23,569 nt of DNA from a virus, in the IMG/VR virus record IMGVR_UViG_3300037961_003223, positions 1-23,569 of that record. One strand, written 5' to 3'. Under the pieces are notes generated by a model. That model ran no database searches. It saw only the letters and a list, made by a program, of their open reading frames with translations, and was not told the DNA's origin. The first letter of the stretch is position 1; every line of letters begins with the position of its first letter. Position numbers and translations under genes: made by a program. Below are positions 1-19,100 of the stretch, one piece after another.

Positions 1-3
1 TTT

Positions 4-23: not shown

Positions 24-375
24 TAAGGTAAGTCCGCTTACCTATGATTTGATTGCAAATAAAAATGAAACTGCAATAGCACGTTCCATACGTAATTTAA
101 TCCTTACTGCTCCTGGTGAACGTCCTTTTAATCCTGAATTAGGATCACAAGTGAGTCGTTTATTATTTGAACCTATTGATAATATTACAACTGAGGCATT
201 AAAGGAGCAGATCGAGAATACAATTAATAACTTTGAACCTAGAGTTAGATTGCGTAAAGTAGTAGTTCAACCAAACTTTGACGCAGGTGAATATGATATC
301 TCTATTCGTTATGACATTGTTGGTATAGAGGCAACTCCCCAGCAATTATCATTCGCATTACAACAGACACGATAA
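16..375 (+). CDS. 25: gp25-like baseplate wedge subunit / tail sheath initiator
   Basis: This 119-residue protein belongs to the GPW/gp25 family (T4 gp25 is 132 residues). In T4 it sits at the inner baseplate wedge and nucleates sheath polymerisation. Visible hallmarks are APGERPFNPELGS (about residues 32-44), matching the T4 KGSRPFDPEFG stretch, and NNFEPRVRL (about 71-79), matching the family EPR motif (NYEPRI in T4). A C-terminal strand pattern and PQQLSFAL end the protein. The start at 16 is chosen because AAGGA lies 7 bases upstream and MSFKV is the usual beginning of marine homologues as I recall them. The frame is open back to base 1, so an upstream start cannot be strictly excluded. 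Its stop overlaps the gp6 start by one base, so the two are probably translationally coupled. Confidence 0.93.
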   Translation: MSFKVSPLTYDLIANKNETAIARSIRNLILTAPGERPFNPELGSQVSRLLFEPIDNITTEALKEQIENTINNFEPRVRLRKVVVQPNFDAGEYDISIRYDIVGIEATPQQLSFALQQTR

Positions 376-2429
376 TGGCACTAGTAAACTTTGCCAATTT
401 AGATTTCGATCAGATTAAGCAGTCAATCACTGAATATCTGCGATCTAATTCTAACTTTACTGATTACGATTTTGAAGGATCGAATCTTTCAACAATTATC
501 GATGCGTTAGCATATAATACGTATATTACCTCATATAATGCCAATATGGTATCTAATGAGGTATTCATTGATTCCGCCACTCTCAGGGAGAATGTGGTGT
601 CTCTGGCGAGGAATATAGGATACACTCCTCGCTCTAGTAAGTCGGCAAGAGCTAATATATCTTTTATTGTTAACACCGCTAACTATAGCGTAAAGCCCCA
701 GACAATTACACTGAATAAGGGTATTGTTGCAATATCACAAAATTTTGATAGATCTAGTTATACGTTCTCCATCATGGAGGATATTACAGTACCAGTTGTA
801 AATAATATTGCTACGTTTAGTAATATTGATGTGTATGAAGGGACGTATGTAACCAGTGATTTTACATATAATACATATGATCCAGATCAAAGATATATCT
901 TAAGTAATCCAAACATCGACGTTTCCACAATAAATGTAACGTGGAAACCATCATCATTTTCATCAGTAAAAAGAAAATTCCGCAGATCTGATAGTTTATT
1001 TGAAGTTACTAGTGAGTCGCCCGTTTATTGGGTGCAAGAAATAGAAGATGAGAGATATGAATTAATATTTGGTGATGGTATATTTGGATTAGCATTACAG
1101 GAACCAAACTTTATTGAAGTTGCATATCTTGTTAATAATGGTAGTGATGCTAATGGTGTGTCTAGTTTATCATTTAATGGTAAATTAACCACATCGAGAG
1201 ATAATGTCGCAATCAATTCGGGTATCTCACGTTTAACTGTAAACACACCATCATTTGGTGGTAGTGGTGTTGAAAGTGTTGAGTCGATTAAGAAGTATGC
1301 AACTCAAACATACGCATCGCAGAACAGAGCTGTTACATCGACTGATTACGAATACATTATTCCTAAAATTTATCCAGAAGCAGAATCGATTTCTGTGTTT
1401 GGTGGTGAGGAATTAAGTCCCCCGCAATTTGGTAGAGTATTCGCTAGTATCAAACCAATCAACGGTGCATATCTTTCTAACCTTGTAAAGGATAATATTA
1501 AGAGAGAAATCAAAAAATATTCTGTAGGTGGTATTGATTTAGAAATTACTGATCTCAAGTATCTTTACATCGAAGCACTTGTCAATGTATATTACAATGA
1601 AAATGATGCAAATAGTGGTGATCAGGTTGTATCAATCGTATCAAACAACATTGAAAGATATGCAGATTCAACTGAACTTAATAAGTTTGGTGCAAGATTC
1701 AAGTATAGTAAGTTCCTGAATATTATTGATAGTAGTAATTCTGCAATTACATCTAATATTACAACAGTTCAGATGAGGAGAGACTTAAGAGCTGCTGTTA
1801 ATTCCTTTGCTGAATATGAGATTTGCTTTGGAAATCGCTTCCACATTGCAAATCACGGACATGGAACACATAATGGTAAAATTGGTTACAATATTAAGTC
1901 CTCTGGTTTCCAAGTTAGTGGAGTTGCAGGTACTGTTTACCTTGCGGATGCTGCTGATGACAGTTTAGAAACTGGAGTAATTAATCTTATCAGATTAAAA
2001 TCACCTACTGAAGCAGTTATTGTAAGAAGAAATATTGGAACGATTGATTACATAAAGGGCGAAATTAAGTTAAATCCAATTAATATTATATCCACAAACA
2101 TCAATAGACAGTTCCCATTAATTGAAATTTCTGCTATCCCATATTCTAATGATATCATCGGATTACAGGATCTTTATATTCAACTAGATACTAATAACGT
2201 AACGATAAATTCTGTTAGTGACAGAATATCCTCTGGTTATGATATATCAGGATCTGATTATATTGTTTCTTCAAGTTTTGCAAATGGAAGTTTAGTCCGT
2301 GGCACAGTTGACTCTAGAGTGATAACAACACAAGCACCCCGAACAAGTTCACCAGTTACGGCAACAACGTCTACAACGACTACTACAACAACTACAAGAT
2401 CAACTTCCTCACCTACTTATTCATACTAA
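375..2429 (+). CDS. 6: gp6-like baseplate wedge protein (Baseplate_J family)
   Basis: This 684-residue protein is close in size to T4 gp6 (660). In T4, gp6 forms the continuous inner ring of the baseplate and, with gp7, the wedge core bundle. The N-terminal region (about 1-100) contains FEGSNLSTIIDALAYNTYI and the block ending SLARNIGYTPRS, typical of T4-like marine gp6. The middle (about 225-430) has the Baseplate_J-like pattern: FGDGIFGL, GGSGVESVESIKKYA, then NRAVTSTDYEYI. A C-terminal part (about 490-600) includes a His cluster HIANHGHGTH (490-499) and GTIDYIKGEI. The last ~30 residues are a Thr/Ser-rich low-complexity tail. It starts directly on the gp25 stop (TAATG) without a clear Shine-Dalgarno sequence, which fits coupling. 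Confidence 0.95.
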   Translation: MALVNFANLDFDQIKQSITEYLRSNSNFTDYDFEGSNLSTIIDALAYNTYITSYNANMVSNEVFIDSATLRENVVSLARNIGYTPRSSKSARANISFIVNTANYSVKPQTITLNKGIVAISQNFDRSSYTFSIMEDITVPVVNNIATFSNIDVYEGTYVTSDFTYNTYDPDQRYILSNPNIDVSTINVTWKPSSFSSVKRKFRRSDSLFEVTSESPVYWVQEIEDERYELIFGDGIFGLALQEPNFIEVAYLVNNGSDANGVSSLSFNGKLTTSRDNVAINSGISRLTVNTPSFGGSGVESVESIKKYATQTYASQNRAVTSTDYEYIIPKIYPEAESISVFGGEELSPPQFGRVFASIKPINGAYLSNLVKDNIKREIKKYSVGGIDLEITDLKYLYIEALVNVYYNENDANSGDQVVSIVSNNIERYADSTELNKFGARFKYSKFLNIIDSSNSAITSNITTVQMRRDLRAAVNSFAEYEICFGNRFHIANHGHGTHNGKIGYNIKSSGFQVSGVAGTVYLADAADDSLETGVINLIRLKSPTEAVIVRRNIGTIDYIKGEIKLNPINIISTNINRQFPLIEISAIPYSNDIIGLQDLYIQLDTNNVTINSVSDRISSGYDISGSDYIVSSSFANGSLVRGTVDSRVITTQAPRTSSPVTATTSTTTTTTTTRSTSSPTYSY
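2364..2396 (+). repeat. Threonine-codon tract at the gp6 C-terminus
   Basis: A run of mostly ACN codons encodes TTSTTTTTTTT near the end of gp6, followed by an Arg/Ser/Thr/Pro tail. The codons are mixed (aca, acg, act), so it is not a pure trinucleotide repeat. It probably forms a disordered, exposed tail. Confidence 0.85.
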
Positions 2430-2438
2430 AGACGTAAG

Positions 2439-5400
2439 ATGATATCAACCGATTTACAACGAGTACAGATTCAGGACATTATTGAGTATCAATTACCTGC
2501 ATTTGTGAGGGATGATTTTCCCCTGGTTGGTGAATTTTTAAAGCAATATTATATTTCTCAGGAATATCCTACTTCTCCTTCTGATATTATACAAAATATT
2601 GATGAGTATGTAAAATTAGAAACTCTTCTTGGTTCTCAAGAACAGACAAAACTTTCTGAGAATATTTCTTTTAATGCGACTGAGATTCTTGCGGGCACGG
2701 ATATAGAATCTGGTGAGTTTGGAACATATAATTTTCCAGATAGATATGGACTGATTAAAATTGATGACGAAATTATTTTATACACATCTAAAAATAGAAA
2801 CACATTTAAAGGATGTATTCGTGGATTTAGTGGTGTTACTGAATTAAGTGATAATGATGAAAATCTAACTTTCTCTTCGTCCGAAGCAACGTCTCACACT
2901 CAAGGCAGTAAGATTGTTAATCTTAGCAATATTTTACTAAAAGAGTTTTTAATAAAACTGAAGCAACAGATTGCACCAGGATTTGAGAGAAGAGAAATTG
3001 ATTCTGACATAAATCAAAAACTTTTCTTATCAAGAACTAAAGATTTTTATCAAACTAAAGGAACAGATGAGTCGTTTAGAATTTTATTTGCAGCACTTTA
3101 TGGCGAAAAAGCAGAAGTCGTAAAACCAAAAGAATTTCTTTTTAGGCCCTCTGATGCCCAATATAGAAAAACAAAAGATATTGTTGTAGAGGCAATAGTT
3201 GGTGATCCCGCAAAATTAAAAAATCAAACCCTTTATCAGGATGCATTTCCTGAATATGATATCGAGAGTTCATTCGCAACTGTTGTTGACTCTCAAAAGA
3301 TTGTAAGGGGCGATAAAACATATTATCAACTTAGTGTTGATTTTGATTATAGTAAAGATATTGATCTTTCTGGAGGAACAGTATTAGGAGATTTTGTTGC
3401 ACATCCTAAAACACAAAACACAGTTTTAGTCGCATCTGGTTCATCTATAATTGACGTAGATTCAACGATTGGTTTTCCTGATAAAGGAGAAATTCAAATT
3501 GACGGTAAGAGTGGCATTTTAACTTATCGTTCAAAAACAATTAACCAGTTTACGGGAGTTGGATTAGCGCACACAACAATCTTTGGAACTAATTATGAAA
3601 TCGCTGTTGGAACCGAATTAAACCTAAATGCTAGTGCATATGGGTTTGAGGGGATTAGCGCCGTCTCAATCGCTTCTAGCGATGCCTCAGTGGTAGGAAT
3701 AGCTACCACCTCCAAGATTGAAGTAAGAATAGGAAAAGTTCTTGGGAAAAATGTAATCTCTGATGACACAGCAAATTTCTCAGTAAATGATAACATCCAG
3801 ATTAAATCTCTTGGTATTAATGCATCTAAGGTATTAGATAATAGTTGGTTTGTTAACGTTAGCCCTAAGTATAGCGTAAAAAGTTTATCATTGATTGATG
3901 CATCTAACTTTACATACTCTATTGTAACCTTTGCAGAAAATAATTTAAGAATCGGTGATAAAGCGATTGTTATTCAATCTGATGGTGTAGGAAAAGAAGG
4001 TATTGTTTTAGATGTTACCTCTGCAAACACTTTTACATTCTCTAGAGCAGGTAAATTAACTGGATCTACTTTCAATGTTAGAAGAGGCATCTTAAAACCC
4101 GACGTTAGTAATCTTAATTTTGATGATTATTCATACATTGACAAATCGTTTGCCAATGTTCAAAATGTTTACGCAAAATATAATGGTGATGTTTTAGTTG
4201 CATCACCATCAATTCCCAATTATCATGATTCTCCTCTTAATTTTTATGATAGAAAAGTAAAATTAAATGGAGAATTTAGTGGTGAATTGTTCAGTTTAAC
4301 TCGTAACCATGGGTTTTATACTGGAGACAAAGTATACTATGAATCTTATCCCTTTACAGCAGAATTTGGTATAGCACATGAGAGTAAGTTTTCTGAAATC
4401 AATCCTGGCGTTTTCTATGTAAAACGAGTTAACGACTCTCAATTTAAAATCGCATCTAGTTTAACTAACTTATATAATGACAATTTTGTTTCAGTATCTG
4501 GAATTGTAACTAATAATTATTTTTGTGCTAATGATTTCTTTAAAAAGAATCTTCAGCACCAAAAATTGTACAGAGAATTTAAATCACCAGTTAATAACGG
4601 AGGAGAATATACAACACTGCCAGGTAAAACTGGAATGCTAGTTAACGGTGTTGAAATTCTTAATTATAAATCTGGAGATAGTGTATATTTTGGAGAGATT
4701 AATGAAATAACTGTTGCTGCTCCTGGAACCGAATATGATATCATAAATCCACCCATTCTCTCAATTCAGGACTCTACCGGTATTGGTGCCACTGGACTTG
4801 TTAATGTAAAAGGTAATTTGGATAGAATTGAAATTCTAGATCCTGGATTTGATTATGTCACCAATCCAATTGTCACAATTAGTGGTGGAAATGGTTTAGG
4901 TGCTAATGCATATGCCAACACCAAACTCATTACACATTCAATTTCTTTTTATTCTACCTCTGATAATGTACAAGTTGGACTTTCTTCCGACACTATCGGT
5001 TTTACTACATTCCATAGATTCAGAGAAACTGAGAGAGTAGTTTACAAAACTGACGGACAAAGTGCGATTGGTGGTATTACAGATAATGCTGATTATTATG
5101 TAAAACTTGTTGATTCAAAAACAATACAACTGTTTAATAATGAAAGTGATTCTATTACAGGATCAAATCCCGTAAACTTAACTTCCAACGGAGTTGGTGT
5201 TCATAGATTTGAATCTTATAATAAGAAACGTGTTATTTCAGATATTATTGTTACTTCATCTGGTTCTGGTTATGAAAATAAAGAAAGAGTGTCTGGTATT
5301 GCCGGAATAAACACAGCACTTAATCAGATTACTATTTTAAACCACGGATTTAACTCTGGAGAAACTGTAACATATTCTGGTAATGCATCTGGACTTAGCA

Positions 5401-8400
5401 GTGATCAAAATTATATCATAACTGCAGTAGACTCTGATAACTTTAAGCTTTCGTCTGTTGGTATAGGAACAACTGCTAAGGAATTCTACTATAATACCAA
5501 TCAATATATTAATATTGAGTCTGTCGGATCAGGAACTCATACATTTAATTATCCAACAATTACTGTTAATGTTTCTGGTGAAATTGGTGTAACCACATTT
5601 AGTGGGCAAGATTTTAATGCAAAACTTCAACCAATATTCAGAGGATCTGTAGAGTCGGTACATTTGACTGATAATGGTGTAGGGTATGGTGCAAGTGAAG
5701 TAATTAACTTCAATAAGCAACCAGTATTTAAATTGCTTAGTGGAAGAGAGGCAGAACTTCTTCCCATCGTCAATAACGGTAAAATTGAACAGGTTCTTGT
5801 AATTAATGGTGGTTATGAATACAATTCACCTCCCGACTTAGTAATTAATGGATCTGGTAGATTTGGAAAACTGACGCCAGTTATTAGTAATGGACAAATT
5901 ACAAGAGTAATTGTTAATAACTCTGGAATTGATTATACTAATACTACAACTATTACCGTTAAACCCAGTGGACTCAATGCAAATCTGATCGCTGAAATTA
6001 ATCAGTGGACTATTAATTTATTTGAAAAATACCAAGATATTATCAGCGAAGATGATGGTATTTTAACTACTGCCATATCTGATAATTATGGTATTGAATA
6101 CACTCACCTATATGCTCCAAGAAAACTTAGAGAATCTGTTTTTGGAAAAGTTATTTCTGATGGAGATAGTACTAAGTACGGAGTCGCTGATTTAAGACTT
6201 GATTCTTCTAATTCCGAAACAGAGGCAGAATTTCACTCTCCTATTATTGGATGGGCCTATGATGGCAATCCAATTTATGGCCCTTATGGATATGATACAA
6301 ACACTGGAGGTAATGTAAGAGCACTCAGGAGTGGATATAAGTTAGCAACATTTTCAAATCGTCCTGCACTCTCTTCTTGGAAACAAGGTTTCTTCTGTGA
6401 GGATTTTGTATTTACTGGTGAAGGAGATCTCGATGAGCACAATGGAAGATATTGCGTAACTCCCGATTTCCCTAATGGAGTATATGCATATTTTGCTACT
6501 ATTAGTGACGGATTTGTTGAAAGTTCAGGGCCTTTTGAAAACTTCAAGTTACCTCAATATCCTTACTTAATTGGTAATACATTCAAGTCTAAACCAAATG
6601 AATTTAACTTTAAGAATGATTCACACCAAGGACAATATGATATTGTTGAAAACAGATGGTTAAGAAATACAACCCCATATGGATTAACTTTAGATAATGT
6701 CTCTTATGAATATGTGACTGAACCATATAAAATCTATGATGAAGTAATTGATATCACTTCTACCTCCACAGGAACCGTTGATAGTGTCGGGATCATCACC
6801 GGAGGAAGTGGGTATCAGGTTAATGATAGAGTAGTATTTGAGGAATTATCGGGTGCCACACCTGCCAAGGCAAAAGTATCCGAAGTCACTGGTAAAGTAA
6901 TCAATAGCATTAGTGTAGCGTCTTCTTCAATCACTGAACTTGAAATCGCACCTATTGATTCGTCCGGTAGATTTATTGCAGTTTCACCTTCACCCCATAA
7001 TTTTACTAATACTAACTTAGTAACAATATCCGGTATTAACACATCCGTTAATAAAATTAACGATTCGTTTAATATTGGAGTATCAACTGCATTCTTCAAT
7101 CTTGCAACTGGAGTTGGAGCTACAAGTGCAACAGGTATCATTACATACTTCTCGATCAGTGGTGGAATCATTGATAGAGGTGATCTTTCAATTCGTGATA
7201 ATGATATCTTAGAGATAGGTTCTGAAAAAGTTAAAGTTCTGAACGTTGATGCTCTAAATTCAAGAATAAGAGTTGAAAGAGCAGTTGATGGCACTGTTTC
7301 GTCTGCACATACCGCTACAACTTCTATTGTTGAGCAAAGTCGCAAGTTCACTTTTAATTCTAATAGAGAAAATAATGTAAAATTTGAACTTAACAAACAA
7401 ATCTATTTTGATCCAAAAGAATCAGTTGGTGTAGGAACTTTAACTGGAACTGGCGTTGGATCCACCATTTTCTTCTCCAATCCTGGTGCAGGCATTACTC
7501 AAGTCTTTATTGAGAACAGAGGTATCTTCTTACCAAATCACAATTTAAAGACTGGCGATCAAGTCCTCTACAATAATGGCGGTGGAACATCCATAGAGGT
7601 TGTATCCGATCCTACTGCTGGCCCAAATTATACGATTGGTAATAACACACCACTATTCGTTGCAAGAATATCTGATGACATCATCGGTATTCAAACATTC
7701 AAGGTTGGTATTGGTTCTGTTGGTACTTTTGTTGGTATCGCAGATACCACAATGAATTCCGGATTGCTTTCCTTTACAGGAATTGGTGCTGGAACAAAGC
7801 ATAGTTTTAAGACAGTTAAGACTAATGTTGTAACTGCTGAAGCAACTAGGAACATCGTAACGGTATCTACGGCATCAACTCACGGATTAACGATTGGTGA
7901 TAAAGTCAAAATGTCCGTAACCCCCGGTATTACTACCACGGTTACAGTTAAGTATAACGATCACAATAGAAGGATTGTTTTCAATCCTCTTGGATTTACC
8001 ACTGCTGGAGTAAGCACAAGTCAGAATTCAATTGAAATTAGCAATCATGGATTTGAAACAGGAGATAAAGTAATTCTTGATGCAAATCCTGCTCCTATTG
8101 GATTACAAGATCAAAAGATTTACTATGTTTCAAAACTCTCCAAAGATAAAGTAAGACTTTGCAACTCTAAGTATGAGTCTGGTAAATTCCAACCCAATTT
8201 TGTAGGTATAGAGAGTGCAAGATCTGGAACACTTCTCCCCATAAATCCTCCAATTAACATCATTGAAGGAAACACTGTTATATTTGATCTTAGTGACTCA
8301 TCTTTATCTTCTTTGAATGCATCCACACTCTATTCTGCATTTGACATGAATCTCTACAGAGATTCTAATTTTACAGATAGATTTGATGGATCTCTCAATA

Positions 8401-11400
8401 ATAATAAATTTGAAGTTACAAAGTCTGGTAAAATTGGTGTTGACGCAACAGCTAAGTTAACTTTATCAGTTAATGAAGATGTTCCAGAAAATATTTTCTA
8501 TGAATTTAGTAATGTAAATTCTGACTTTATCGAACCTGTTAAAAAGGAAATCGTCATTGATAGAGAGGTAGACGGTTTTAACAAAATTAATAAAGTTGAT
8601 AGCGCGTATAATGGACAGTTTAAATTAACTGGAGCAACATCAAGTTCTTTCAAATATGACATTAAAAAACTTGCGGAGAGATCTTCCTATTCAACTAACG
8701 CAGGATTATCCTATGTTACAGATTCCACATTAGCATATGGTGGCATAGCAAACATTGATGTTACCTATAAAGGTGCTAATTATAAAGAAATAGTTGGAGT
8801 ATCTACAGTCGTAGGAATTGTAACAGGAACAGGTGCTGTTCTTGAACCCTCAAGTAATACCATCGGTAAGGTTCTTTCTACAAATATTGAAAATATTGGA
8901 TTTAATTATCCAACCGACTTCACTATCCGTCCTACAACGAATTTGCCAGAAGTTCTTCTCCTTGAATCTCTTACATCATTTGAAGAAATTGGAATTAGTT
9001 CTGCTGGAAGAAACTATAATATTGCACCAAACTTAATTGTGCTTGATGGATTAACTGGTAAGCACATTAAAGATGTTGATCTTTCCTATGAACTTGGAGA
9101 TTCTAAAGTAACTATTAGAAAAAATACAAGTGGACTTACAAACGTAACTCCAACTATCATTCCTATTAGCAACTCAAACGGTGTTGCAATTAGTGATATA
9201 TCTTTTGATATATCATCTAAAAATGTTACCGTAGGATTTGATACTGGATTTAGTGATCAATCACCATTTGCCGTTGGTGATAAAGTTTTGATTGAAAATA
9301 TTAGCGTTGGTGTTGGATCAACTGGTTCAGGATATAATTCTGTTGATTATGATTATCAGTTATTTACACTTACTGATGTTAATATTCCATTAGGAGGAAA
9401 TACTGGTGTAGTTACATTTAGTCTCTCTGGAATTATTGGTGATAGTCTTTATGCTGGTAATTTTGATTCATCAAATTCTGCAGGGAGAATTATTAACCAA
9501 AGTTCTTTTCCTCAATTTGATATCAAATTAAGAAAAAATAATTTCTTAGTAGGTGAGCAAGTTGTTTCTAACAGTGGAATAGGAAAAGTTGATAGTTGGA
9601 ACAATAGAATTGAATTGTTGAAGGTTTCTACTTCCAGAGATTTTAATGTTGGAGATTTAGTGGTTGGACAATCTTCAAGAACTCAAGGAATTGTAAAATC
9701 AAAAGTTGACTATAATTCTGAAATTGAAACTGAATCATCCGCTATTGTAGAAAAGGGATGGAATACTACATCTGGATTCTTTAATGATAATCAACAAAGG
9801 ATTCCTGATAACTTCTACTATCAGAATTTCTCATATGCTATTAAGTCTAAGATTCCCCTACAAGACTGGGATGATGCGGTAAGTTCTTTAAATCATACTG
9901 CAGGATTCCTTAAGTTCAGTGATCTAATAATTGAGTCAAAAGATGAAAACAACACTAAACTTGTAACTGGTATATCAACAGTCACATTTAATATTGATAT
10001 TCTTCCTACTACAACATATGGAAGTGGAGATTTTGGTGGAGCTATTAGTCTTAACTGCTATCCTGCTTTTGATCTTGTAACTGAGAATTCAAAAACTGCT
10101 TCGGGAACAGTATACTCAGATAGAATTTTCTTACAAAATAGAGTTCTTACCGATTACTTTGAATCAGTAGGAAATAGAGTTTTAACTATTGATGATTTTA
10201 GCACTCAATTTAACAGTGAGGAACGTCCGACAAGATTTAGTATTGTTAAAAAGTTCCCTGTCGATCAAAGATCTAAAAAAATCTTTACTTTCATTAGAGA
10301 CAAACTATACACTGGAGAAAGACAAGCATCTTTTGTAAATATAATTCAAGATGGATCTAACGCTTCAGTTCTTAACTATGCAAGAGTTGAAAGCGCAACT
10401 GACTTGGGATCTTTTGATTTTAATATTGCAGGTTCTGAGGGACAACTTCTTTTCTACCCAACAAAGTATCGATTTAATGATTACAATATTTCTCTGATGA
10501 GTTTTGATCTCGATAATAATGTTTCTGGTGTAGGAACATTTGCGCTCGGAGAAATTTGCGACATCTCATCCACACAAGTTAATGTAGCTGCAGGATCTAC
10601 AACTACAATTGTAGGTATTGCTTCTACTTATAGATCTTCTAAGATTCTAGTTGAGTATACAACAAATGATGGAAGGTTTGGAAACAATGAGTTGAATGTT
10701 ATTCATGATGGTACAACTGTTGATCTTGTTGAATATGGTAATTTAAACACAGGATCAGGTTTATTGGATATGGGAACATATTCTGCTGATATGTCGTCTG
10801 GCACTGTAAACGTCAACTTCACACCTGCTGCTGGATTAGCACTCACTGCCAACACCATTAGAGTATCAATGTCCAGCACTGAATCTGTTGGTGTTGGTTC
10901 TACTATTATCGGAAAGGCAACAGAAAACATTGGTTCGCTGCAGTCTTTCTACACCTCTATTGGATCCACTTCTTCTCCAGGTATTCATACAATTGCTACT
11001 TATACATGTGGTGGCGAAAATGATTATCAAGCAGCGTACTATCTTGTAAGTATTGAAGATACTACTAATGATCAATATCAATTCTCTGAAGTCATTGTTC
11101 TTAATGATAACTCTGAGTCTTACATCACAGAGTATGGAACTTTAACACCAGGTAGTGGTATTGGCACCATTGGTGCTTTCATGACAGCGACTGAGACGCA
11201 TCTTCAGTATACACCACCCGCAAGTGTAGATACCCAAATTCGTGTTTATCAACATGCAGTTCAGTTGGTTGAAGTTGATAACACTCTTGATAATGAAATA
11301 GATCTAAACAATGCCTCCATCACCGCTGGTTTTGGTTTCTATGATGGAACTGCGAAAGATGTCAGGAGACAATTTGGATTAACTCATAAAGGACAACCAA

Positions 11401-14400
11401 TATTCCTTAGAAATTTTGATGGAAGTGACACCTCAATCGTCGATACTACTAATGATACAATTAGAATTCCAGATCACTTCTTTGTAACTGGCGAACCTGT
11501 AAATTATTCTGTCGGAATCTCTACTCATGTTCGCATTAACATTGAAACAACTACATTTGCTGGAATTGGAAGTACATCTATTCTACCCACTAATGCAAGT
11601 GTTTACATCATTAAAGATAGTGATGCAACAGTTAGACTCGCTTCATCTGCTGAAAATGCACTTGCTTCTACTCCTGTCGCAATTGGTATTACAGGTGTTG
11701 GAATCGGAACTTTCCACACGTTTACTTGTAATAAACAAAACACTAAGTGTCTGATTGCACTTGACAATTTTATTCAAAATCCAATTGTCGCTACTGCAGT
11801 TACCACAACTATTGATAAAGAAATTGCACTTGCCGATTCAATTATTGAAACTATTGGTGTTACCTCATTCTTTGCCGCCGATCTTATTCAAGTTGAAGCA
11901 GAAATTATGAAGATTAATACTGTTGGTTTTGGTACAACTAATGGTATTTTAGTTGATCGTGGTTGGATGGGAACTGGCATTACAACTCACCCAGTTGGTG
12001 TTGCAGTAACAAAAGTTGACGGTGCTTACAATATTGTCAATAATACAATCAATTTCTATACTGCTCCTCAAGGGCCTACACCTCTAAGTTCAATCACTAA
12101 TCCACCCGATGAGAGAGATTGGACTGGTATTACAACTCACTCTAAATTCCAAGGAAGAACATTCCTTAGATCTCAGAGCACTGGTAGCACCGCTGATGCA
12201 TATGATACTAACTATATCTTTGATAGTGTTGCTGATTTATTTGACGCTCAAACGAAGACATTTACATTAAAATCTGAGCAAAGAGATGTTGTTGGATTCT
12301 CTACTAATAACGCAGTAGTTCTTATTAATGGCATATTCCAAGGGCCCACTGGACAATTGGGTATTGCTCAGGATTATTCTTTAAGTGAAGGTAATGGTAT
12401 TAGTAGCATTACATTTACTGGAACTGCAACATCGATTGCATATGATCCAAACAATGCTTCAATTCCTGTCGGAGGATATATTGTATCAGTTGGATCTACT
12501 GCTGGACTCGGATATCAACCTTTAGTATCCGCTGGTGGTACTGCTGTTGTATCTACTGCAGGAACAATTACATCTATCGCAATTGGAAGAACTGGATCTG
12601 GTTACAGACAAGGATCACAAACTGTAAATGTTGGAGTTTATACATCTTCCACAGGTATAACCGGTATTGAATTTATCGGTACTGCTGCTGTAAGCAATGG
12701 ACACATCGTGAGTGTTGCGATTACAAATCCCGGATCGGGATATCAAGTTGGATCAGAACCAGTGGTTGTATTTGATGAACCTTTGTCATACTCTAATATT
12801 CCTTTGGTTTACTCTGCAGAATCTCCCGTTGCAGGTGCAGGAATTGAGGCAACAGTTGATATTGTTGTAGGACAAGGATCTAGTGTCATTGATTTTGAAA
12901 TCAAAAACTTCGGATATGCTTATGGACAAAAACAGGTTCTGACTGTTGCCACAGGCGGAGCAACTGGAATTCCTACCGATACAAACTTTACATTTGATGA
13001 GTTCCAAATTACTGTAAACAGAGTTGATTCTGATAAATTCTCTGCATGGCATTTCGGTGAACTTGAGCGTCTTGATAATATTGATAGTGAATTTGATGGG
13101 GTAACTAGACAATTTACTCTTAAGAGAAACGGATCTCCAGTAACAGTTAGAGCAGCTGCTGGATCCAATATTGATGTTCAATCAGCAATTCTCATTTTTA
13201 TAAATGATATTTTACAAGTGCCTGGAGAGGCATATGAATTAAATGGCGGTAGTGTTATTAATTTTGCAGAGGCACCTCGCGGCACATTTGATAATGGAAC
13301 TACAGGTGGAGATACTTGTAAGATTCTTTTCTATAAAGGAAGTGGTGACATTGATGTAACTTTCCGTGATGTTCTTCCCACTTTAAAGGACGGTGATGAT
13401 CTTACTATAAGAGGTGATGATGATCTTGTTCCTAATTCTCTTGATCAGAGTGCAAGACTTATAACTGAGATACTCTCCACCGATACGGTAGAAACTAATC
13501 CTTATAGTGGAAGGGGAATTGATTCAAATCCTGATCACGCACGAACAGTAACTTGGTGTAAACAAACTGTTGATAAAGTTATCAACGGAAAGATTGTTAG
13601 TAAAGCAAGAGAACTGAACGCTGCTCTGATCAATCCAAAAACTAACCTGATTCAATCAGTTGGTGTTGGATCCACTCAGATTTATGTTGAAAGTGTCATT
13701 CCATTCTTCAATCCTGATGATGAAAATCAAACTGCCAAGAATAAGCAAACTGTAAGTATTGTTTCTCAAAATAATCTTGTAGCGGCTGCTGCGACTGCTA
13801 TTGTATCAATTGCAAACACTGTTGAGTCTATCGTTATTGGTTATGGTGGAACAGGTTATACTTCTGCTCCTTCTGTAACGATTGAAACACCAGTTGGACT
13901 TGGAACAACTGCTAGAGCAACTGCAACAGCAACTCTTACAGGTGATACTGTATCTTCTATCACAGTTTCCACACCAGGTGTGGGATATACAAGAACATCT
14001 GTTCCACAGGTTCTGATAGAGGCACCTAAAGCAACCAGAGAATCCAATAGAACTACTTTATATGAGGGTGATTTTGGTGATATTGTTGGATTAACTTCCA
14101 CATCTGTCGGTGTTGCTTCTACAGGATTTGTTATGGATCTCTTTATTCCCGTCGATTCTTTCTTACGCAACACTAAGGTTGTTGGAAGTGCAGTAACTCT
14201 TAGTGACATTTCGACGGGTGATTACTTTACTATTAAGAACAGCAATGTTGGTAGTGGTGTAACATCACTCTATCAAACAGGTAGTGTCTTAGGGGTAACA
14301 ACTCAGTTCCTTGATGCTGTTTATGAAGTTGCTGCAGTGTCTGTTGCCACAACTGCTGTTGCTGGCGTAGGTATCACTTATGTCAAGAGAGTTACAGTAA

Positions 14401-14603
14401 GTGTTGAAGATCTTGGCGATATCACTGGAATTGGACTCACAGAGTTCTATGGTGAGTTCTCTTGGGGCAAAATTACCCTTGGCGGTAGAACAAATGCAGC
14501 AGCATTTGACGCATATACTCTAAGAGGCACCTCTGGTATTACAACTGGTGGTGTCGTGAGCAGAGTCGAACCTCTCAAACTCATAGGATTCTCTACAACA
14601 TAA
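2439..14603 (+). CDS. Giant modular baseplate protein with gp7-like N-terminus
   Basis: One open frame encodes 4054 residues, about four times T4 gp7 (1032), in the gene 7 position between gp6 and gp8. The N-terminal ~240 residues resemble the C-terminal part of T4 gp7: a helical start with LPAFVRDDFPLVGEFLKQYY, then SRTKDFYQTKGTDESFRILF (198-217), against SRSYDFYSTKG in T4 as I recall it. A beta module (IKIDDEIILY, about 80-165) is inserted between these halves. Beyond lie GxGY-type and NHGF-TGDKV-type beta repeats, a YHYH domain (about 1265-1385), a duplicated EYG module (about 2733-2948), two FTLK modules (about 3268 and 3552), a VTWCKQTVDK segment (about 3704) and a C-terminal SWGKITLGGR segment. 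There is no signal peptide, membrane helix or enzyme motif. The first part probably belongs to the wedge core bundle; the rest is probably peripheral or fibre-like. The start follows gp6 by 9 bases with only a weak Shine-Dalgarno sequence. Structural role is well supported; the gp7 assignment is moderately sure. Confidence 0.88.
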   Translation: MISTDLQRVQIQDIIEYQLPAFVRDDFPLVGEFLKQYYISQEYPTSPSDIIQNIDEYVKLETLLGSQEQTKLSENISFNATEILAGTDIESGEFGTYNFPDRYGLIKIDDEIILYTSKNRNTFKGCIRGFSGVTELSDNDENLTFSSSEATSHTQGSKIVNLSNILLKEFLIKLKQQIAPGFERREIDSDINQKLFLSRTKDFYQTKGTDESFRILFAALYGEKAEVVKPKEFLFRPSDAQYRKTKDIVVEAIVGDPAKLKNQTLYQDAFPEYDIESSFATVVDSQKIVRGDKTYYQLSVDFDYSKDIDLSGGTVLGDFVAHPKTQNTVLVASGSSIIDVDSTIGFPDKGEIQIDGKSGILTYRSKTINQFTGVGLAHTTIFGTNYEIAVGTELNLNASAYGFEGISAVSIASSDASVVGIATTSKIEVRIGKVLGKNVISDDTANFSVNDNIQIKSLGINASKVLDNSWFVNVSPKYSVKSLSLIDASNFTYSIVTFAENNLRIGDKAIVIQSDGVGKEGIVLDVTSANTFTFSRAGKLTGSTFNVRRGILKPDVSNLNFDDYSYIDKSFANVQNVYAKYNGDVLVASPSIPNYHDSPLNFYDRKVKLNGEFSGELFSLTRNHGFYTGDKVYYESYPFTAEFGIAHESKFSEINPGVFYVKRVNDSQFKIASSLTNLYNDNFVSVSGIVTNNYFCANDFFKKNLQHQKLYREFKSPVNNGGEYTTLPGKTGMLVNGVEILNYKSGDSVYFGEINEITVAAPGTEYDIINPPILSIQDSTGIGATGLVNVKGNLDRIEILDPGFDYVTNPIVTISGGNGLGANAYANTKLITHSISFYSTSDNVQVGLSSDTIGFTTFHRFRETERVVYKTDGQSAIGGITDNADYYVKLVDSKTIQLFNNESDSITGSNPVNLTSNGVGVHRFESYNKKRVISDIIVTSSGSGYENKERVSGIAGINTALNQITILNHGFNSGETVTYSGNASGLSSDQNYIITAVDSDNFKLSSVGIGTTAKEFYYNTNQYINIESVGSGTHTFNYPTITVNVSGEIGVTTFSGQDFNAKLQPIFRGSVESVHLTDNGVGYGASEVINFNKQPVFKLLSGREAELLPIVNNGKIEQVLVINGGYEYNSPPDLVINGSGRFGKLTPVISNGQITRVIVNNSGIDYTNTTTITVKPSGLNANLIAEINQWTINLFEKYQDIISEDDGILTTAISDNYGIEYTHLYAPRKLRESVFGKVISDGDSTKYGVADLRLDSSNSETEAEFHSPIIGWAYDGNPIYGPYGYDTNTGGNVRALRSGYKLATFSNRPALSSWKQGFFCEDFVFTGEGDLDEHNGRYCVTPDFPNGVYAYFATISDGFVESSGPFENFKLPQYPYLIGNTFKSKPNEFNFKNDSHQGQYDIVENRWLRNTTPYGLTLDNVSYEYVTEPYKIYDEVIDITSTSTGTVDSVGIITGGSGYQVNDRVVFEELSGATPAKAKVSEVTGKVINSISVASSSITELEIAPIDSSGRFIAVSPSPHNFTNTNLVTISGINTSVNKINDSFNIGVSTAFFNLATGVGATSATGIITYFSISGGIIDRGDLSIRDNDILEIGSEKVKVLNVDALNSRIRVERAVDGTVSSAHTATTSIVEQSRKFTFNSNRENNVKFELNKQIYFDPKESVGVGTLTGTGVGSTIFFSNPGAGITQVFIENRGIFLPNHNLKTGDQVLYNNGGGTSIEVVSDPTAGPNYTIGNNTPLFVARISDDIIGIQTFKVGIGSVGTFVGIADTTMNSGLLSFTGIGAGTKHSFKTVKTNVVTAEATRNIVTVSTASTHGLTIGDKVKMSVTPGITTTVTVKYNDHNRRIVFNPLGFTTAGVSTSQNSIEISNHGFETGDKVILDANPAPIGLQDQKIYYVSKLSKDKVRLCNSKYESGKFQPNFVGIESARSGTLLPINPPINIIEGNTVIFDLSDSSLSSLNASTLYSAFDMNLYRDSNFTDRFDGSLNNNKFEVTKSGKIGVDATAKLTLSVNEDVPENIFYEFSNVNSDFIEPVKKEIVIDREVDGFNKINKVDSAYNGQFKLTGATSSSFKYDIKKLAERSSYSTNAGLSYVTDSTLAYGGIANIDVTYKGANYKEIVGVSTVVGIVTGTGAVLEPSSNTIGKVLSTNIENIGFNYPTDFTIRPTTNLPEVLLLESLTSFEEIGISSAGRNYNIAPNLIVLDGLTGKHIKDVDLSYELGDSKVTIRKNTSGLTNVTPTIIPISNSNGVAISDISFDISSKNVTVGFDTGFSDQSPFAVGDKVLIENISVGVGSTGSGYNSVDYDYQLFTLTDVNIPLGGNTGVVTFSLSGIIGDSLYAGNFDSSNSAGRIINQSSFPQFDIKLRKNNFLVGEQVVSNSGIGKVDSWNNRIELLKVSTSRDFNVGDLVVGQSSRTQGIVKSKVDYNSEIETESSAIVEKGWNTTSGFFNDNQQRIPDNFYYQNFSYAIKSKIPLQDWDDAVSSLNHTAGFLKFSDLIIESKDENNTKLVTGISTVTFNIDILPTTTYGSGDFGGAISLNCYPAFDLVTENSKTASGTVYSDRIFLQNRVLTDYFESVGNRVLTIDDFSTQFNSEERPTRFSIVKKFPVDQRSKKIFTFIRDKLYTGERQASFVNIIQDGSNASVLNYARVESATDLGSFDFNIAGSEGQLLFYPTKYRFNDYNISLMSFDLDNNVSGVGTFALGEICDISSTQVNVAAGSTTTIVGIASTYRSSKILVEYTTNDGRFGNNELNVIHDGTTVDLVEYGNLNTGSGLLDMGTYSADMSSGTVNVNFTPAAGLALTANTIRVSMSSTESVGVGSTIIGKATENIGSLQSFYTSIGSTSSPGIHTIATYTCGGENDYQAAYYLVSIEDTTNDQYQFSEVIVLNDNSESYITEYGTLTPGSGIGTIGAFMTATETHLQYTPPASVDTQIRVYQHAVQLVEVDNTLDNEIDLNNASITAGFGFYDGTAKDVRRQFGLTHKGQPIFLRNFDGSDTSIVDTTNDTIRIPDHFFVTGEPVNYSVGISTHVRINIETTTFAGIGSTSILPTNASVYIIKDSDATVRLASSAENALASTPVAIGITGVGIGTFHTFTCNKQNTKCLIALDNFIQNPIVATAVTTTIDKEIALADSIIETIGVTSFFAADLIQVEAEIMKINTVGFGTTNGILVDRGWMGTGITTHPVGVAVTKVDGAYNIVNNTINFYTAPQGPTPLSSITNPPDERDWTGITTHSKFQGRTFLRSQSTGSTADAYDTNYIFDSVADLFDAQTKTFTLKSEQRDVVGFSTNNAVVLINGIFQGPTGQLGIAQDYSLSEGNGISSITFTGTATSIAYDPNNASIPVGGYIVSVGSTAGLGYQPLVSAGGTAVVSTAGTITSIAIGRTGSGYRQGSQTVNVGVYTSSTGITGIEFIGTAAVSNGHIVSVAITNPGSGYQVGSEPVVVFDEPLSYSNIPLVYSAESPVAGAGIEATVDIVVGQGSSVIDFEIKNFGYAYGQKQVLTVATGGATGIPTDTNFTFDEFQITVNRVDSDKFSAWHFGELERLDNIDSEFDGVTRQFTLKRNGSPVTVRAAAGSNIDVQSAILIFINDILQVPGEAYELNGGSVINFAEAPRGTFDNGTTGGDTCKILFYKGSGDIDVTFRDVLPTLKDGDDLTIRGDDDLVPNSLDQSARLITEILSTDTVETNPYSGRGIDSNPDHARTVTWCKQTVDKVINGKIVSKARELNAALINPKTNLIQSVGVGSTQIYVESVIPFFNPDDENQTAKNKQTVSIVSQNNLVAAAATAIVSIANTVESIVIGYGGTGYTSAPSVTIETPVGLGTTARATATATLTGDTVSSITVSTPGVGYTRTSVPQVLIEAPKATRESNRTTLYEGDFGDIVGLTSTSVGVASTGFVMDLFIPVDSFLRNTKVVGSAVTLSDISTGDYFTIKNSNVGSGVTSLYQTGSVLGVTTQFLDAVYEVAAVSVATTAVAGVGITYVKRVTVSVEDLGDITGIGLTEFYGEFSWGKITLGGRTNAAAFDAYTLRGTSGITTGGVVSRVEPLKLIGFSTT
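2679..2930 (+). repeat. RG-type beta module, copy 1, inside the gp7-like region
   Basis: The pattern is GLIKIDDEIILYTSK, then GCIRGFSG, then SHTQGSKIV: a hydrophobic strand, a D/G-E-I turn, an R-G turn and a closing H-x-x-G-x-x-V strand. Related segments lie near 3466-3615 (GEIQIDGKSGILTYRSK), 7170-7330 (ILEIGSEKVKVL with VERAVDGTVSSAHTA) and 11868-12015 (IQVEAEIMKI with DRGWMGTGITTHPVG). Another is in the last gene near 22495-22640 (YLKIGEEIVSYES with QRGIDSTVAKNY). Boundaries are approximate. Confidence 0.6.
4305..4490 (+). repeat. NHGF-TGDKV beta module, first of a dispersed family
   Basis: NHGFYTGDKVYY is followed by a strand FYVKRVNDSQFKIASS. Recognisable relatives begin near 5340 (NHGFNSGETVTY with YIITAVDSDNFKLSS), 7538 (NHNLKTGDQVLY), 7879 (THGLTIGDKVKM), 8043 (NHGFETGDKVIL with YYVSKLSKDKVRLC) and 11473 (DHFFVTGEPVNY). 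All follow the same layout: a turn with His, a G-D/E-x-V strand, then a Y-x-V/I strand and a final K/R-L strand. Domain limits are approximate. Confidence 0.65.
4707..5975 (+). repeat. Cluster of GxGY-type beta repeats
   Basis: At least six units share the pattern I-x-V/I-x-x-x-G-x-x-Y followed by P-x-(I/V)-x-I. They are ITVAAPGTEYDIINPPILSI (about 4707), IEILDPGFDYVTNPIVTI (4826), IIVTSSGSGYENKERV (5242), VHLTDNGVGYGASEVI (5658), VLVINGGYEYNSPPDLVI (5793) and VIVNNSGIDYTNTTTITV (5908). Another lies near 6786 (VGIITGGSGYQVNDRVVF), and weaker ones lie near 8756 and 8990. They are diverged at DNA level, so they are old duplications or independently acquired modules. Confidence 0.7.
6231..6585 (+). 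other. YHYH-like domain within the giant protein
   Basis: Residues about 1265-1385 contain GWAYDGNPIYGPYGYD (from 1271), then a Cys in FFCEDF, DLDEHNGRYCVTPDFPNG, and YAYFAT in place of the name-giving YHYH (1349-1352). The D-G-x-P-I-Y-G-P, D-E-x-N-G-R-x-C-V-T-P-D and G-x-Y-x-Y order matches the YHYH family, whose molecular role I do not know. The two His of the YHYH signature are replaced by Ala and Phe here. Confidence 0.75.
10635..10883 (+). repeat. EYG module, copy 1 of an internal tandem duplication
   Basis: The segment begins SSKILVEYTTNDG and contains LVEYGNLNTGSG and NFTPAAG before ending TIRVSMSS. It aligns over its whole length with the segment at 11031-11279, with the EYG-x-L-x-x-G-S-G core in the same relative place. 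Confidence 0.75.
11031..11279 (+). repeat. EYG module, copy 2 of an internal tandem duplication
   Basis: The segment begins AAYYLVSIEDTTND and contains ITEYGTLTPGSG and QYTPPAS before ending TQIRVYQHAV. It starts 396 bases (132 codons) after copy 1. The copies are clearly related in protein but much diverged in DNA. Confidence 0.75.
12240..12420 (+). repeat. FTLK module, copy 1
   Basis: FDAQTKTFTLK is followed about 14 residues later by AVVLINGIFQGP and YSLSEGNGISSITFTG. A related segment lies at 13092-13360. In phage fibre-like proteins this kind of module is usually a beta-sandwich repeat; that fold assignment is inference. Confidence 0.65.
12577..12960 (+). repeat. Second cluster of GxGY-type beta repeats
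   Basis: Three units: IAIGRTGSGYRQGSQTVNVG (about 12577), VAITNPGSGYQVGSEPVVVF (about 12715) and the weaker FEIKNFGYAYGQKQVLTV (about 12894). The first two are among the closest matches to the shared pattern in the window. Confidence 0.7.
13092..13360 (+). repeat. FTLK module, copy 2
   Basis: FDGVTRQFTLKRNGSPV is followed by ILIFINDILQVPGEAYELNG and CKILFYKGSGD. Compared with copy 1 it keeps F-D-x-x-T-(K/R)-x-F-T-L-K and the (L/F)-I-N-(G/D)-I-(F/L)-Q strand. Confidence 0.65.
13831..14026 (+). repeat. Third pair of GxGY-type beta repeats
   Basis: IVIGYGGTGYTSAPSVTI (about 13831) and ITVSTPGVGYTRTSVPQVLI (about 13960) are adjacent units, separated by an Ala/Thr-rich strand. Confidence 0.7.
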
Positions 14604-14632: not shown

Positions 14633-16192
14633 ATGGCTGAGATTATAACTGATCAACTTCGTATATTAAACGCAAAAGATTTTGTTGCTAGTATTGCATC
14701 CACTAGCAACTCTTTCTATTCATTCGTGGGACTTCCTAATCCCACTGATGTTGATGCAAGTTGGGATAGCAGTCCTCCAGATCCCAGAGATAATTTTAAT
14801 GAGGAGAACAATTATTGGGATACAATGATTGCTCTTAAAAAAATTGATGCTGAAGACGTAAAGCAGGTGATCAAAAAAATCACTTGGCAGTCTGGCACTA
14901 CTTATGACATGTATCGTGCTGATGTAAAAGCGGAAAGTCCTTCGCAACCATCAAATGCTATCACTTTATATGAAGCAAATTATTATGTAATGAACTCTGA
15001 TTACAGAGTTTATATTTGTTTGCAGAATGGATCGAATCCTGAGAATCCAAGTGGAAGAGCATCTCTGGACGAACCTACTTTTACCGATTTAGAACCAAGA
15101 GAAGCAGGAACTAGTGGTGATGGGTATATCTGGAAATATCTTTATACTATCAAACCTGGAGATATCGTAAAGTTTGACTCTACAAACTTTATGCCAGTTC
15201 CAAAAGATTGGACTACAACCACAGATGCAAATATTTCTGCAGTTAGAAATAATGCTGAAACTAGTGGACAACTCAAAATTGTAAAAATAACTAATAGAGG
15301 TGTTGGTTTAGGAACTGCGAATAGAACTTACACACAAGTTCCAATTAAAGGTGACGGAAATGGTGCAGAGTGTACTATCACTATTAACAACAATTCAAAC
15401 GTAGAGTCTGTAACAATATCAAAAGGTGGATCTGGATATACATTTGGAACTATCGATTTAGTATCAGGTAATGTCCCCACTGGATCTACCCCACCAGTTT
15501 TTGATGTAGTTATTCCTCCACAAGGAGGACATGGTGCTGACATTTACAGAGAACTTGGAGCAAGAAATGCATTAATCTACTCCAGAATTGAGAACGACAC
15601 TGAGAATCCTGATTTCATCACTGGAAACGAAATTGCAAGAGTTGGATTAGTTCAAAATCCAAAAGCATATAATACATCGTCAAATCTTTCACTTGATAAA
15701 GCCGCTGCTACTTATGCACTTAAATTGACAGGTGCTGGTTATAGTTCTGCAACATTCACAGCAGACGCTTTTATCACTCAAACTGTTGGACTTGGTTCAA
15801 CTGCTGTTGGTAGAGTTGTATCTTATGATCAAGTAACTGGGGTTCTCAAATATTGGCAAGATAGATCTACTGCAGGATTTAACACTGACGGAAGTAAGAA
15901 TACGAGTCCAGAATATGGATTCAGAATGAACAGATTTTCATCAAATATTACTAGTGATGGATCTTTTAATATCATAGGTGGATCCGCGACTCTTGCCATT
16001 CAAACATCATTTACGGGTATATCTACCGAAATAAATAGTCGTACTTATTACCTGGGGCAGTCCTTCGACGAGGGTGTTGCTCAGCCTGAAGTTGAAAAAT
16101 ATACGGGTAATATCATTTACGTAGATAACAGGCCCTCAATTACAAGATCGTCCAGTCAAAAAGAAGATATCAAAATTATCTTGCAGTTCTAA
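14633..16192 (+). CDS. 8: gp8-like baseplate wedge protein, enlarged
   Basis: This 519-residue protein clearly belongs to the T4 gp8 family; T4 gp8 has 334 residues and bridges gp7 and gp10 on the wedge. Conserved features are NSFYSFVGLPNP (about 27-38), DTMIALKKIDAEDVKQVIKK (about 63-82) followed by TWQSGTTYDMY, YRVYICLQNG (about 124), GDGYIWKYLYTI (about 162) and the C-terminus GNIIYVDNRP...EDIKIILQF. The C-terminus lines up with GEMIYMENRPP...EEINILFTF in T4 as I recall it. About 185 extra residues lie in the middle and include GxGY-type repeats near 15278 and 15411, before PPQGGHGADIYRELGARN (from about 297). It is preceded by a late-promoter-like box but only a weak Shine-Dalgarno sequence. 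It is followed 6 bases later by the DUF4815 gene. Confidence 0.94.
   Translation: MAEIITDQLRILNAKDFVASIASTSNSFYSFVGLPNPTDVDASWDSSPPDPRDNFNEENNYWDTMIALKKIDAEDVKQVIKKITWQSGTTYDMYRADVKAESPSQPSNAITLYEANYYVMNSDYRVYICLQNGSNPENPSGRASLDEPTFTDLEPREAGTSGDGYIWKYLYTIKPGDIVKFDSTNFMPVPKDWTTTTDANISAVRNNAETSGQLKIVKITNRGVGLGTANRTYTQVPIKGDGNGAECTITINNNSNVESVTISKGGSGYTFGTIDLVSGNVPTGSTPPVFDVVIPPQGGHGADIYRELGARNALIYSRIENDTENPDFITGNEIARVGLVQNPKAYNTSSNLSLDKAAATYALKLTGAGYSSATFTADAFITQTVGLGSTAVGRVVSYDQVTGVLKYWQDRSTAGFNTDGSKNTSPEYGFRMNRFSSNITSDGSFNIIGGSATLAIQTSFTGISTEINSRTYYLGQSFDEGVAQPEVEKYTGNIIYVDNRPSITRSSSQKEDIKIILQF
15278..15475 (+). repeat. GxGY-type beta repeats within gp8
   Basis: IVKITNRGVGLGTANRTY and VTISKGGSGYTFGTIDLVSG (from about 15411) carry the same repeat pattern as the giant upstream protein. 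They lie in the part of gp8 that has no T4 counterpart that I can recall. Confidence 0.65.
16030..16037 (+). promoter_or_regulatory. Possible late promoter box inside gp8
   Basis: The octamer aataaata fits NATAAATA and lies about 160 bases before the DUF4815 gene. It is within coding sequence, and several chance matches are expected in a window of this composition, so it is only a candidate. Confidence 0.2.
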
Positions 16193-16198
16193 GGAATT

Positions 16199-19100
16199 AT
16201 GTCACAGGAAACCAATCTTAACGTCGCTCCATATTTTGACGACTTCGATCCTCAGAAGGATTATTACAAGGTTTTATTTAAACCAGGTTATCCAGTGCAG
16301 GCGAGAGAGTTAACCTCTCTTCAGTCTATCCTGCAAAATCAAGTTGAAAAGTTTGGACAGCACTTTTTTAAGGAAGGTGCTAAAGTAATTCCCGGCAATA
16401 CGACATATTCAACCAATTATCATTGTGTTGTATTAGAAAACACATACTTAGGAATTCCTATTTTTGATTACATCGATCAATTAGTAGGAGCACAAATAAA
16501 AGGACAAGATTCTGGTGTTACTGCAGTTGTTGATAGTTATATCTTAGAATCAGAATCTACAAGAGGACAAGTAACTCTGTATATTAATTATTCTGGATCT
16601 GGTACAAATAATCAAGAGTCAGTCTTCAGAAGTGGAGAACTTCTGACTGCAAACGTAACTATTTCTACTGCCAATACCCTTATAGGTGAAGGCGTTCCTT
16701 TCGCCACTACTGTTCAACAAGGTGCAACCGCAACAGGATCTGCATTCTTCATCAGTGATGGTGTGTATTTTGGCAAAGGAACTTTTTTAAATGTAAGTGA
16801 TCAGACATTAATATTAGATCAATATTCTAACACTCCCAGTTATAGAATTGGATTATTAGTTGAAGAGACAATTATTAATCCCGATTTAGATCCAACACTG
16901 ACTGACAATTCAGCGGGATTTAATAATTTTGGAGCTCCAGGTGCAGATAGACTTAAGATTACCGCATCACTTCAAAAAAAAGATATTAGTGACTTAGATG
17001 ACAGTAATTTTCTTGAGATTGCAACTGTAGTTAATGGTGTTCTTCGCGAAAAAAATACGAGTGAATACTCATTTATCACAGATGAACTGGCTAGAAGAAC
17101 ATATGCAGAATCTGGTGATTATTATGTTAAGTCTTTTGGTATTAATGTAAAAGAATCTCTTAACAATAGAGAGGGAAACAGAGGACTCTTTACAGAAGAT
17201 CAAACTACATACTCCGGATCTATACCATCTGATGATTTAGCGATCTATCAAATTTCCCCTGGTAGAGCATTTGTAAAAGGATACGATGTAGAAACAACTG
17301 CGCCAGTATTTCTTGATGTCCCTAAACCTAGAACCACAAAGACTTTAAAAGCACAACAAATTAATTATGAGACAGGTGAGACACTTAAACTCAATAGAGT
17401 TCATGGTTCTCCAACAATAGGTATTGGTAATACTTATGTATTAAGTCTCAGAGACGCTAGGGTAGCTAATAGTTCAACTGGCATCGCTGGTAAAGAAATA
17501 GGATTAGCAAGAGTTTATGACTTTAGATTAGACTCAGGAACTTACAGCGGTTCCAATTCAAACATTAACGAGTGGGGATTATCTCTATTTGATGTTCAAA
17601 CAACCACTGAAGTTACATTAAACGAAACTATTACATTATCAGTTCCTACTTTTATTAAGGGTAAAAATAGTGGTGCAACTGCATTTTTGAAAGACGCAGC
17701 CACTAATACAAAATCTCTTGTATTATACGAAACTTCTGGTAAGTTTATTCTAAATGAAAACTTTATTATTGATGGAATTGAAAATTCAAGAGTAGCAACT
17801 GCAATCACTTCCCACGGTATTAGTGATGTACTATCAGTTTTTGGTAGTGCAAATGGAGCTGAGGTTGGAGCCGCAAGAACTTTCTCTGCTGATGTGGTTC
17901 TTTCCCCCAATTTTAATGTCGGGGTTGCAACTATCACTGCTGCGGCTTCTAATACATCAACACTGAGATCTACAAATCCTCTTTTCCCAGGACAAATTAA
18001 GGTAGGAAATATTCTTTCCTTTTCTGGCAGTTTATCTCAAGATTCAGTTTTTGCATCTGTCGTTAGTGTTGCGACATCATCTGTAACAATTACTGGTGTT
18101 TCCACAGTAGAAGGTGTTTGTAGTGGTGCTCTTCCAGCGTCAGCAACTACCCTTAATGATGTTAAAGTGATCGCTGGAGATCTTGGTATTTCTAATGACA
18201 GCACTCTGTACACAGAGATGCCTAAGCGTAATATTTCTAATGTAGATTTAACTGACGCCACACTCACAATTAGAAAGACTCAGCAAGTTAACATTGTTGA
18301 CAATAAGTTATCTGCTGCTGTTACAACTGAATCTAATGAAACGTTCTTACCATTTACCCCTGAAAGATACACTCTTATTAGAAGTGATGGTACAACTGAA
18401 GAACTTACCTCAGATAAGGTTCAGTTAAATTCTGGTTCTAATCAATTAGAAATTTTCAATCTTGGCGGTGATGATGAGGCAACTCTTGTCACAACTATTT
18501 CTAAGATTAAACCTAAAGCAAAAAATAAAATAAAAAACAGAGTCAACTCTGTTGTTATTGACAAGTCTGTAAAGAGTGCTTCTGGTATTGGTTCTACAAC
18601 TCTTAATGATGGACTGACTCATGGTAATTATCCTTTCGGTACTAGAGTTCAAGATGAATTTATTTCACTAAATTCTGCAGACTTGATTGAAGTTCATGGA
18701 ATCTATGAATTAGCGACTGATCCATCTGCTGATAATACAGATCCATCAGCACCCTCAATGACTCTTGCAAATTTGACAGGGCCTACTGCAAAAACTTCCG
18801 ATCTTGTAATTGGAGAATCTGTAATTGGACAAACATCAGGCGCTCACGCTATCGTTGGTGTAAAACAAACTGCTTCTAAAATAGCATTCCTTCCTAAAAA
18901 TCAAATTAGTTTCAAAGAAGGAGAAATTGTTGTATTTGAAGAATCTGGAGTAAGAGGATCTCTAACCACTTTAGATACTCCAAGTAAAGATATTTCATTC
19001 AAGTTCAAATCTCGAAATGGGCAAAATGGAGAGTTTTATAATCATGGTGTTCTGAAAAGAAAAAATGATGAAGAGGCTCCTCAAAGAAAAATAATTGCAT

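Follow-up and report, generated by a model that had tools for sequence, protein, structure and literature searches.

T4 gp7 and TssG of the T6SS each pair with a dimer of gp6, or of a gp6-like protein, within the baseplate wedge. T4 gp7, a wedge protein, occurs in six copies (PMC3004832). TssG, the T6SS counterpart, anchors two TssK trimers through two loops (PMC6300606); in XM1 gp17 (242 residues), an internal loop (residues 80-106) holds six spikes and the C-terminus another six (PMC10457771); and in Alg12 the gp7-like part lies exposed, touches the tail fibres and has been called a re-engineering hotspot (PMC8894135). For pelagi- and cyanomyophages, T4 gp7 has been described as absent and apparently replaced by VrlC (PMC7029224). 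The searches made turned up no solved baseplate structure for a T4-like marine cyanophage.

The window analysed here, a virus record from IMG/VR that is 23,569 bases long, carries an operon in the order gp25-gp6-gp7-gp8-VrlC (Table 1). Judging from its relatives, it belongs to a T4-like marine phage whose host is most likely a cyanobacterium. An earlier note on this DNA had described an uninterrupted frame filling the gene 7 slot, flanked by gp6 and gp8 and about four times as long as T4 gp7. Each of these points holds: the frame is single and intact, with 4,054 codons and no internal stop, its neighbours are gp6 and gp8 by both Pfam and PHROG, and the gp7 of a T4-like phage has 1,032 residues. 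Beyond occupying the slot of a T4 gp7 orthologue, the giant also carries the gp7 core itself. The VrlC/DUF4815 gene is a second giant structural gene within the same operon.

Table 1. Features of the window; residue numbers refer to the giant gp7, and a plus sign marks the strand where recorded.
Feature	Position	Residues	Strand	Support or remark
gp25	1-375			PF04965, E 1.2e-17
gp6	375..2429		+	PF21379; phrog_219, E 2.8e-193; expected wedge partner
Giant gp7 gene	2439..14603	4,054 aa	+	ATG start; 436.5 kDa predicted
Core block 1	2457..2618	7-60	+	Counterpart of gp7 helical domain; common to all short gp7s
Core block 2	2988..3119	184-227	+	Motif DFYxxKGTxxSxxILFxALYGE
Insertion	3159..9749	~2,200 residues	+	Separates blocks 2 and 3; T4-type gp7 domain V site
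Three putative FCCH-like beta modules	4356..5543	640-691, 871-923, 980-1035	+	Iterated HMM
YHYH domain	6225..6515	1263-1359	+	PF14240, E 1.1e-23
Further putative FCCH-like modules	7614-7805, 8082-8231, 11583-11720			Iterated HMM
Core block 3	9759..9938	2441-2500	+	Motif YYQxFSYxIKSxxPxxxWxDxxxSxxHPAGF
C-terminal extension	9939..14600	~1,550 residues	+	At the T4-type gp7 domain VI site
gp8	14633..16192		+	PF09215; phrog_438, E 6.6e-161
VrlC/DUF4815 gene	16199-23569	at least 2,457 aa		PHROG 358, function unknown; open at contig end

Stops or frameshifts that would split the frame are absent from eight independent IMG/VR contigs, which hold stop-free orthologues of 4,055-4,070 aa. In three other close relatives (L007, L015 and L019) the giant gene is broken into several frames, presumably through assembly errors. 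Comparison of the window with the eight orthologues gives an overall dN/dS of 0.095-0.119, and every 250-codon block examined lies at 0.02-0.17, with none above 0.17, so the whole giant chain is under purifying selection; by the same measure, the arms contain no hypervariable stretch among these close relatives. Together, the independent contigs and the dN/dS values rule out an assembly artefact or chance frame. Tandem Repeats Finder reported no DNA repeats, and a blastp search of the protein against itself found no internal repeats.

The size of the protein, which the earlier note had taken as unusual, is typical of a known and named cyanophage family. PHROG 2885 ('baseplate wedge subunit', a profile of 4,179 positions) matches the giant gp7 over the full-length profile at 3,511 bits, with residues 7-3408 as the best matching stretch, and the first 987 residues are matched in 466 phage records, many of them labelled 'baseplate wedge initiator'. 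NCBIfam holds no model for the giant gp7. We computed the length of the core-bearing gene directly after gp6 in each phage. Short and T4-like gp7s range from 503 aa in Mendera through Cr30 (767), Mosig EXVC030M (874), OLIVR5 (881), Astolliot (994), phiM12 (1,007), HTVC008M (1,016) and the T4-like LF82-35 (1,032) to V09 (1,165). Those of cyanophages span about 3,000-6,200 aa: S-SSM7 3,007, S-PM2 3,048, Syn1 3,274, S-BM3 3,849, S-CAM9 3,884, the window 4,054, Bellamy 4,067, S-SM2 4,156, P-TIM68 4,307 and, as the longest members, P-SSM2 5,195 and S-ShM2 6,198. On the strength of these lengths and of PHROG 2885, the window gp7 is an ordinary member of the giant family, and what we add is its anatomy. 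The cyanophage giants (Bellamy gene 111 and the proteins of S-SM2, P-TIM68, S-CAM9 and P-SSM2) are alike in slot, split core, YHYH domain and architecture, and differ from the window gp7 only in sequence and arm length; Bellamy gp7 is 44% identical to it over the full length, and relatives of about 90% identity occur in IMG/VR.

Profile comparisons indicate that the giant protein is almost certainly a gp7 orthologue with a split core. The gp7 is not uniformly enlarged: its conserved core comprises no more than about 200 residues and is split into two parts, and the extra length was added at two defined sites. In direct alignments, a T4-like gp7 aligns to window residues 175-227, and the gp7s of phiM12 and HTVC008M align twice, to the N-terminal region and to residues ~2430-2516. 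Iterated HMMs keep the order of block 2 followed by block 3 in every gp7 examined, with block 1 weak or undetected in T4-like gp7s. As a control, HMMs derived solely from the giants were tested on 11 short or T4-like gp7s together with 451 decoys made by shuffling or reversal: the profiles of blocks 2 and 3 ranked 11 of 11 above all decoys, whereas that of block 1 recovered the six short gp7s and left the T4-like ones at noise level.

Searches against the PDB point the same way. The N-terminal profile retrieved T4 gp7 first (E 6.3e-6, at residues 725-758, corresponding to block 2); block 3 alone had gp7 862-894 as its top match at an E-value that is not significant by itself (0.71); and the three blocks joined gave gp7 chains at E 3.8e-10 and 5.4e-10, the next match standing at 0.67. 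The joined profile also spans block 1 in the gp7 of 9f4a. Core profiles alone gave such matches, as phmmer with the whole giant gp7 found nothing in the PDB, and the Pfam Baseplate_wedge model PF23786 (cut-off 27) likewise rises from 14.5 bits for the whole protein to 31.9 bits for the joined core. The phiM12 gp7 has a match to TIGR02242, the P2 gpI tail domain, at E 1e-5, yet below the cut-off of that model. In a PDB search concerning the core fold, the phage baseplate chains that ranked highest were two of gp7 length, at rank 1 (E 1e-3) and rank 3 (E 2e-2). Because the AlphaFold model of a whole short relative has low confidence in its core, the position of the insertion is taken from sequence.

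Some neighbouring observations concern annotation and internal structure. In S-ShM2 and S-SSM7, the giant directly after gp6 carries the gp7 core blocks, and downstream genes labelled gp7 (L021:20940-22661 and L039:13651-22656, respectively) are without them; these labels are probable misannotations. A ~65-residue module lying between blocks 1 and 2 (residues 57-121, 2607-2801) recurs after block 2 at residues 310-375 (3366-3563), and again in the proteins of S-PM2, Syn1 and S-ShM2.

The two growth sites can be read against T4 gp7 (PDB 5hx2, 5iv5), with which the giant shares the order of blocks 2 and 3 and the position in the operon, and whose domains V and VI mark the sites of growth. In the T4-like gp7 of Astolliot, block 2 lies at 697-732, Pfam domain V at 739-835, block 3 at 837-870 and domain VI at 895-984, after block 3. 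T4 gp7 has about 640 residues before the core and only some 100 separating blocks 2 and 3, whereas the cyanophage core begins at the N-terminus and the giant lacks the ~640 residues that precede the core in T4-like gp7s. Short gp7s of Pelagibacter, Sinorhizobium and Caulobacter phages (PF23786) resemble the giant in their N-terminal core and in an insertion between blocks 2 and 3, and differ in their length of 767-1,016 aa, a C-terminal extension of 20-210 residues and the lack of YHYH. Insertion and tail lengths vary independently between phages, at ~800 and 20 residues in phiM12, ~2,190 and 534 in S-SSM7, ~2,240 and 2,670 in P-SSM2, and ~2,750 and 2,665 in S-ShM2; the largest extra pieces of P-SSM2 map to window residues 3380-3469. 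Most of the giant gp7 is thus extra sequence, in keeping with the earlier proposal of a large mass without a T4 counterpart.

In the arms, iterated HMMs show the repetition to consist of diverged modules: six, which by our reading are E1-FCCH-like, recur, as do about eight short G-x-G-Y repeats. An AlphaFold model covering residues 646-1660 only (54 sequences; mean pLDDT 81, pTM 0.63) is a chain of beta domains. With this model, Foldseek returned no PDB match at E <= 0.001; ubiquitin E1 chains (by our reading in the FCCH region) and a JBD30 baseplate chain scored high probability over short stretches and are suggestive only, and among viral models (BFVD) Bellamy gp7 was best. The earlier note's description of the protein as fibre-like finds no support in the sense of a trimeric tail fibre: no tail-fibre, collagen or tail-collar model in Pfam or PHROGs matches the giant gp7, and the modelled stretch is a string of beta domains. 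Window residues 1111-1191 (5769-6011) and, weakly, gp8 residues 205-272 match PHROG 460 'head closure Hc2', which suggests a beta module shared by wedge and neck proteins.

Within the first arm lies a YHYH domain, matched by PF14240 at 84.7 bits against a cut-off of 25. In phage records whose names contain Synechococcus, Prochlorococcus or Cyanophage, YHYH is matched in 457 and gp8 in 458. Seven gp7s lack the domain (those of phiM12, Cr30, Mendera, OLIVR5, Astolliot and two Pelagibacter phages), and it has no match in any Pelagibacter or Methylophilales record. The association with cyanobacterial hosts is near-perfect but confounded with phage ancestry. No solved structure resembling the YHYH region was found by sequence search. 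YHYH matches with 48-58% identity also occur in bacterial or archaeal MAGs (L200-L204, L206, L224), in at least L200-L202, L204 and L206 within very long gp7-like frames; these loci have the look of phage contigs assigned to cellular genomes during binning. Further YHYH proteins are found in giant viruses of eukaryotes (BFVD A0A5B8IDC5 and A0A5J6VJS1; Mimiviridae sp. ChoanoV1 and a Megaviridae environmental sample).

Taken as a whole, the explanation we favour, to which we give a probability of roughly 60%, is a gp7 orthologue with a split wedge core and outer arms for host contact or fibre docking. The three-block core of ~200 residues would pair with the gp6 dimer to form one of six wedges, presumably with one gp7 copy per wedge. 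Since the insertion is tied to the core on either side, it would have to loop out as a first arm, and the C-terminal extension would form a second. Small wedge proteins hold spikes or TssK by loops or by their C-terminus, from which we infer that the arms belong to the outer, host-facing baseplate, contacting the cell surface or docking fibres. XM1 gp17 and TssG are wedge adaptors that associate 2:1 with a gp6-like protein and hold host-facing or receptor-binding-protein-like partners by loops, as proposed for gp7; they bind separate spikes or TssK, whereas the giant gp7 would carry the additional domains in its own chain, and the equivalence of the sites is drawn by analogy and not from sequence homology. 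By that analogy, the arms are probably peripheral in the baseplate, and the odds that they act in host contact or fibre docking are about even; the adhesive role raised earlier is plausible.

In Bellamy, no gene between gp8 and the neck genes is annotated as gp9-gp12, which makes the arms and VrlC candidates for that work. The arms may take over the tasks of T4 gp9-gp12. A bolder and rather doubtful version would have them replace these proteins outright, with host contact and the contraction trigger covalently joined to the core and YHYH as a cyanobacterium-specific contact element. Incorporation into virions is supported for the family, not for the window phage, by a shorter orthologue in the same slot, S-CREM2 ORF122, which was detected in virions with 91 unique peptides (PMC10665884); by its coordinates it has 1,937 aa, and it contains a YHYH match.

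A serious rival, which we nevertheless consider somewhat unlikely, holds that the arms are mainly structural, bracing the wedge, its neighbours and VrlC, and that separate fibres alone contact the host. The selection is even and purifying, with none of the fast-evolving, hypervariable stretches that a receptor-binding tip might show; the chain is beta-rich without a recognised receptor-binding model; and these phages have other large structural proteins (VrlC and long-tail-fibre candidates). The great variation of both arms between genera, however, and the near-perfect tie of YHYH to cyanobacterial hosts fit a host-facing role better. Such a role could also be enzymatic, the YHYH domain turning the arm into a metal-dependent hydrolase that cuts cell-surface material. 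The Pfam match agrees with this, as do the invariance of His1266 and the acidic positions in the YHYH alignments and the prediction by Iyer et al. of such an activity in jumbo phages, made from a His triad and Asp (PMC7824862). In the window, though, the motif reads YAYF, with both eponymous histidines replaced; the same holds for nearly all gp7 relatives and for most of the aligned cellular ones, so that a binding or structural role is likelier than catalysis and a hydrolase improbable.

Even less probable is cleavage of the chain after synthesis, with the N-terminal wedge part alone kept in the virion. S-SSM7 does have a gp7 of 3,007 aa and a separate protein of 3,001 aa in the same slot, but the core flanks the insertion, so that cutting away all that follows the N-terminus would destroy the core; purifying selection acts on every block, and the S-CREM2 orthologue reaches 27.2% coverage in virions, a figure for its chain as a whole. 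That gene 7 is missing altogether, with VrlC in its place and the giant an unrelated structural protein, has the published statement (PMC7029224) in its favour and is very improbable indeed: the gp7 core stands beside VrlC in six loci, namely the window, HTVC008M, phiM12, OLIVR5, Mendera and Mosig EXVC030M. As the two coexist, gp7 is not missing, nor has VrlC taken its place, and the core match rules out the replacement.

The giant gp7, read as an orthologue with a split core, contradicts the published claim of a missing gp7 replaced by VrlC. From the split core, structural biologists can tell which ~200 residues should be fitted first and which are to be expected on the outside, and the close link between YHYH and cyanobacterial hosts makes this domain a testable candidate for host contact.
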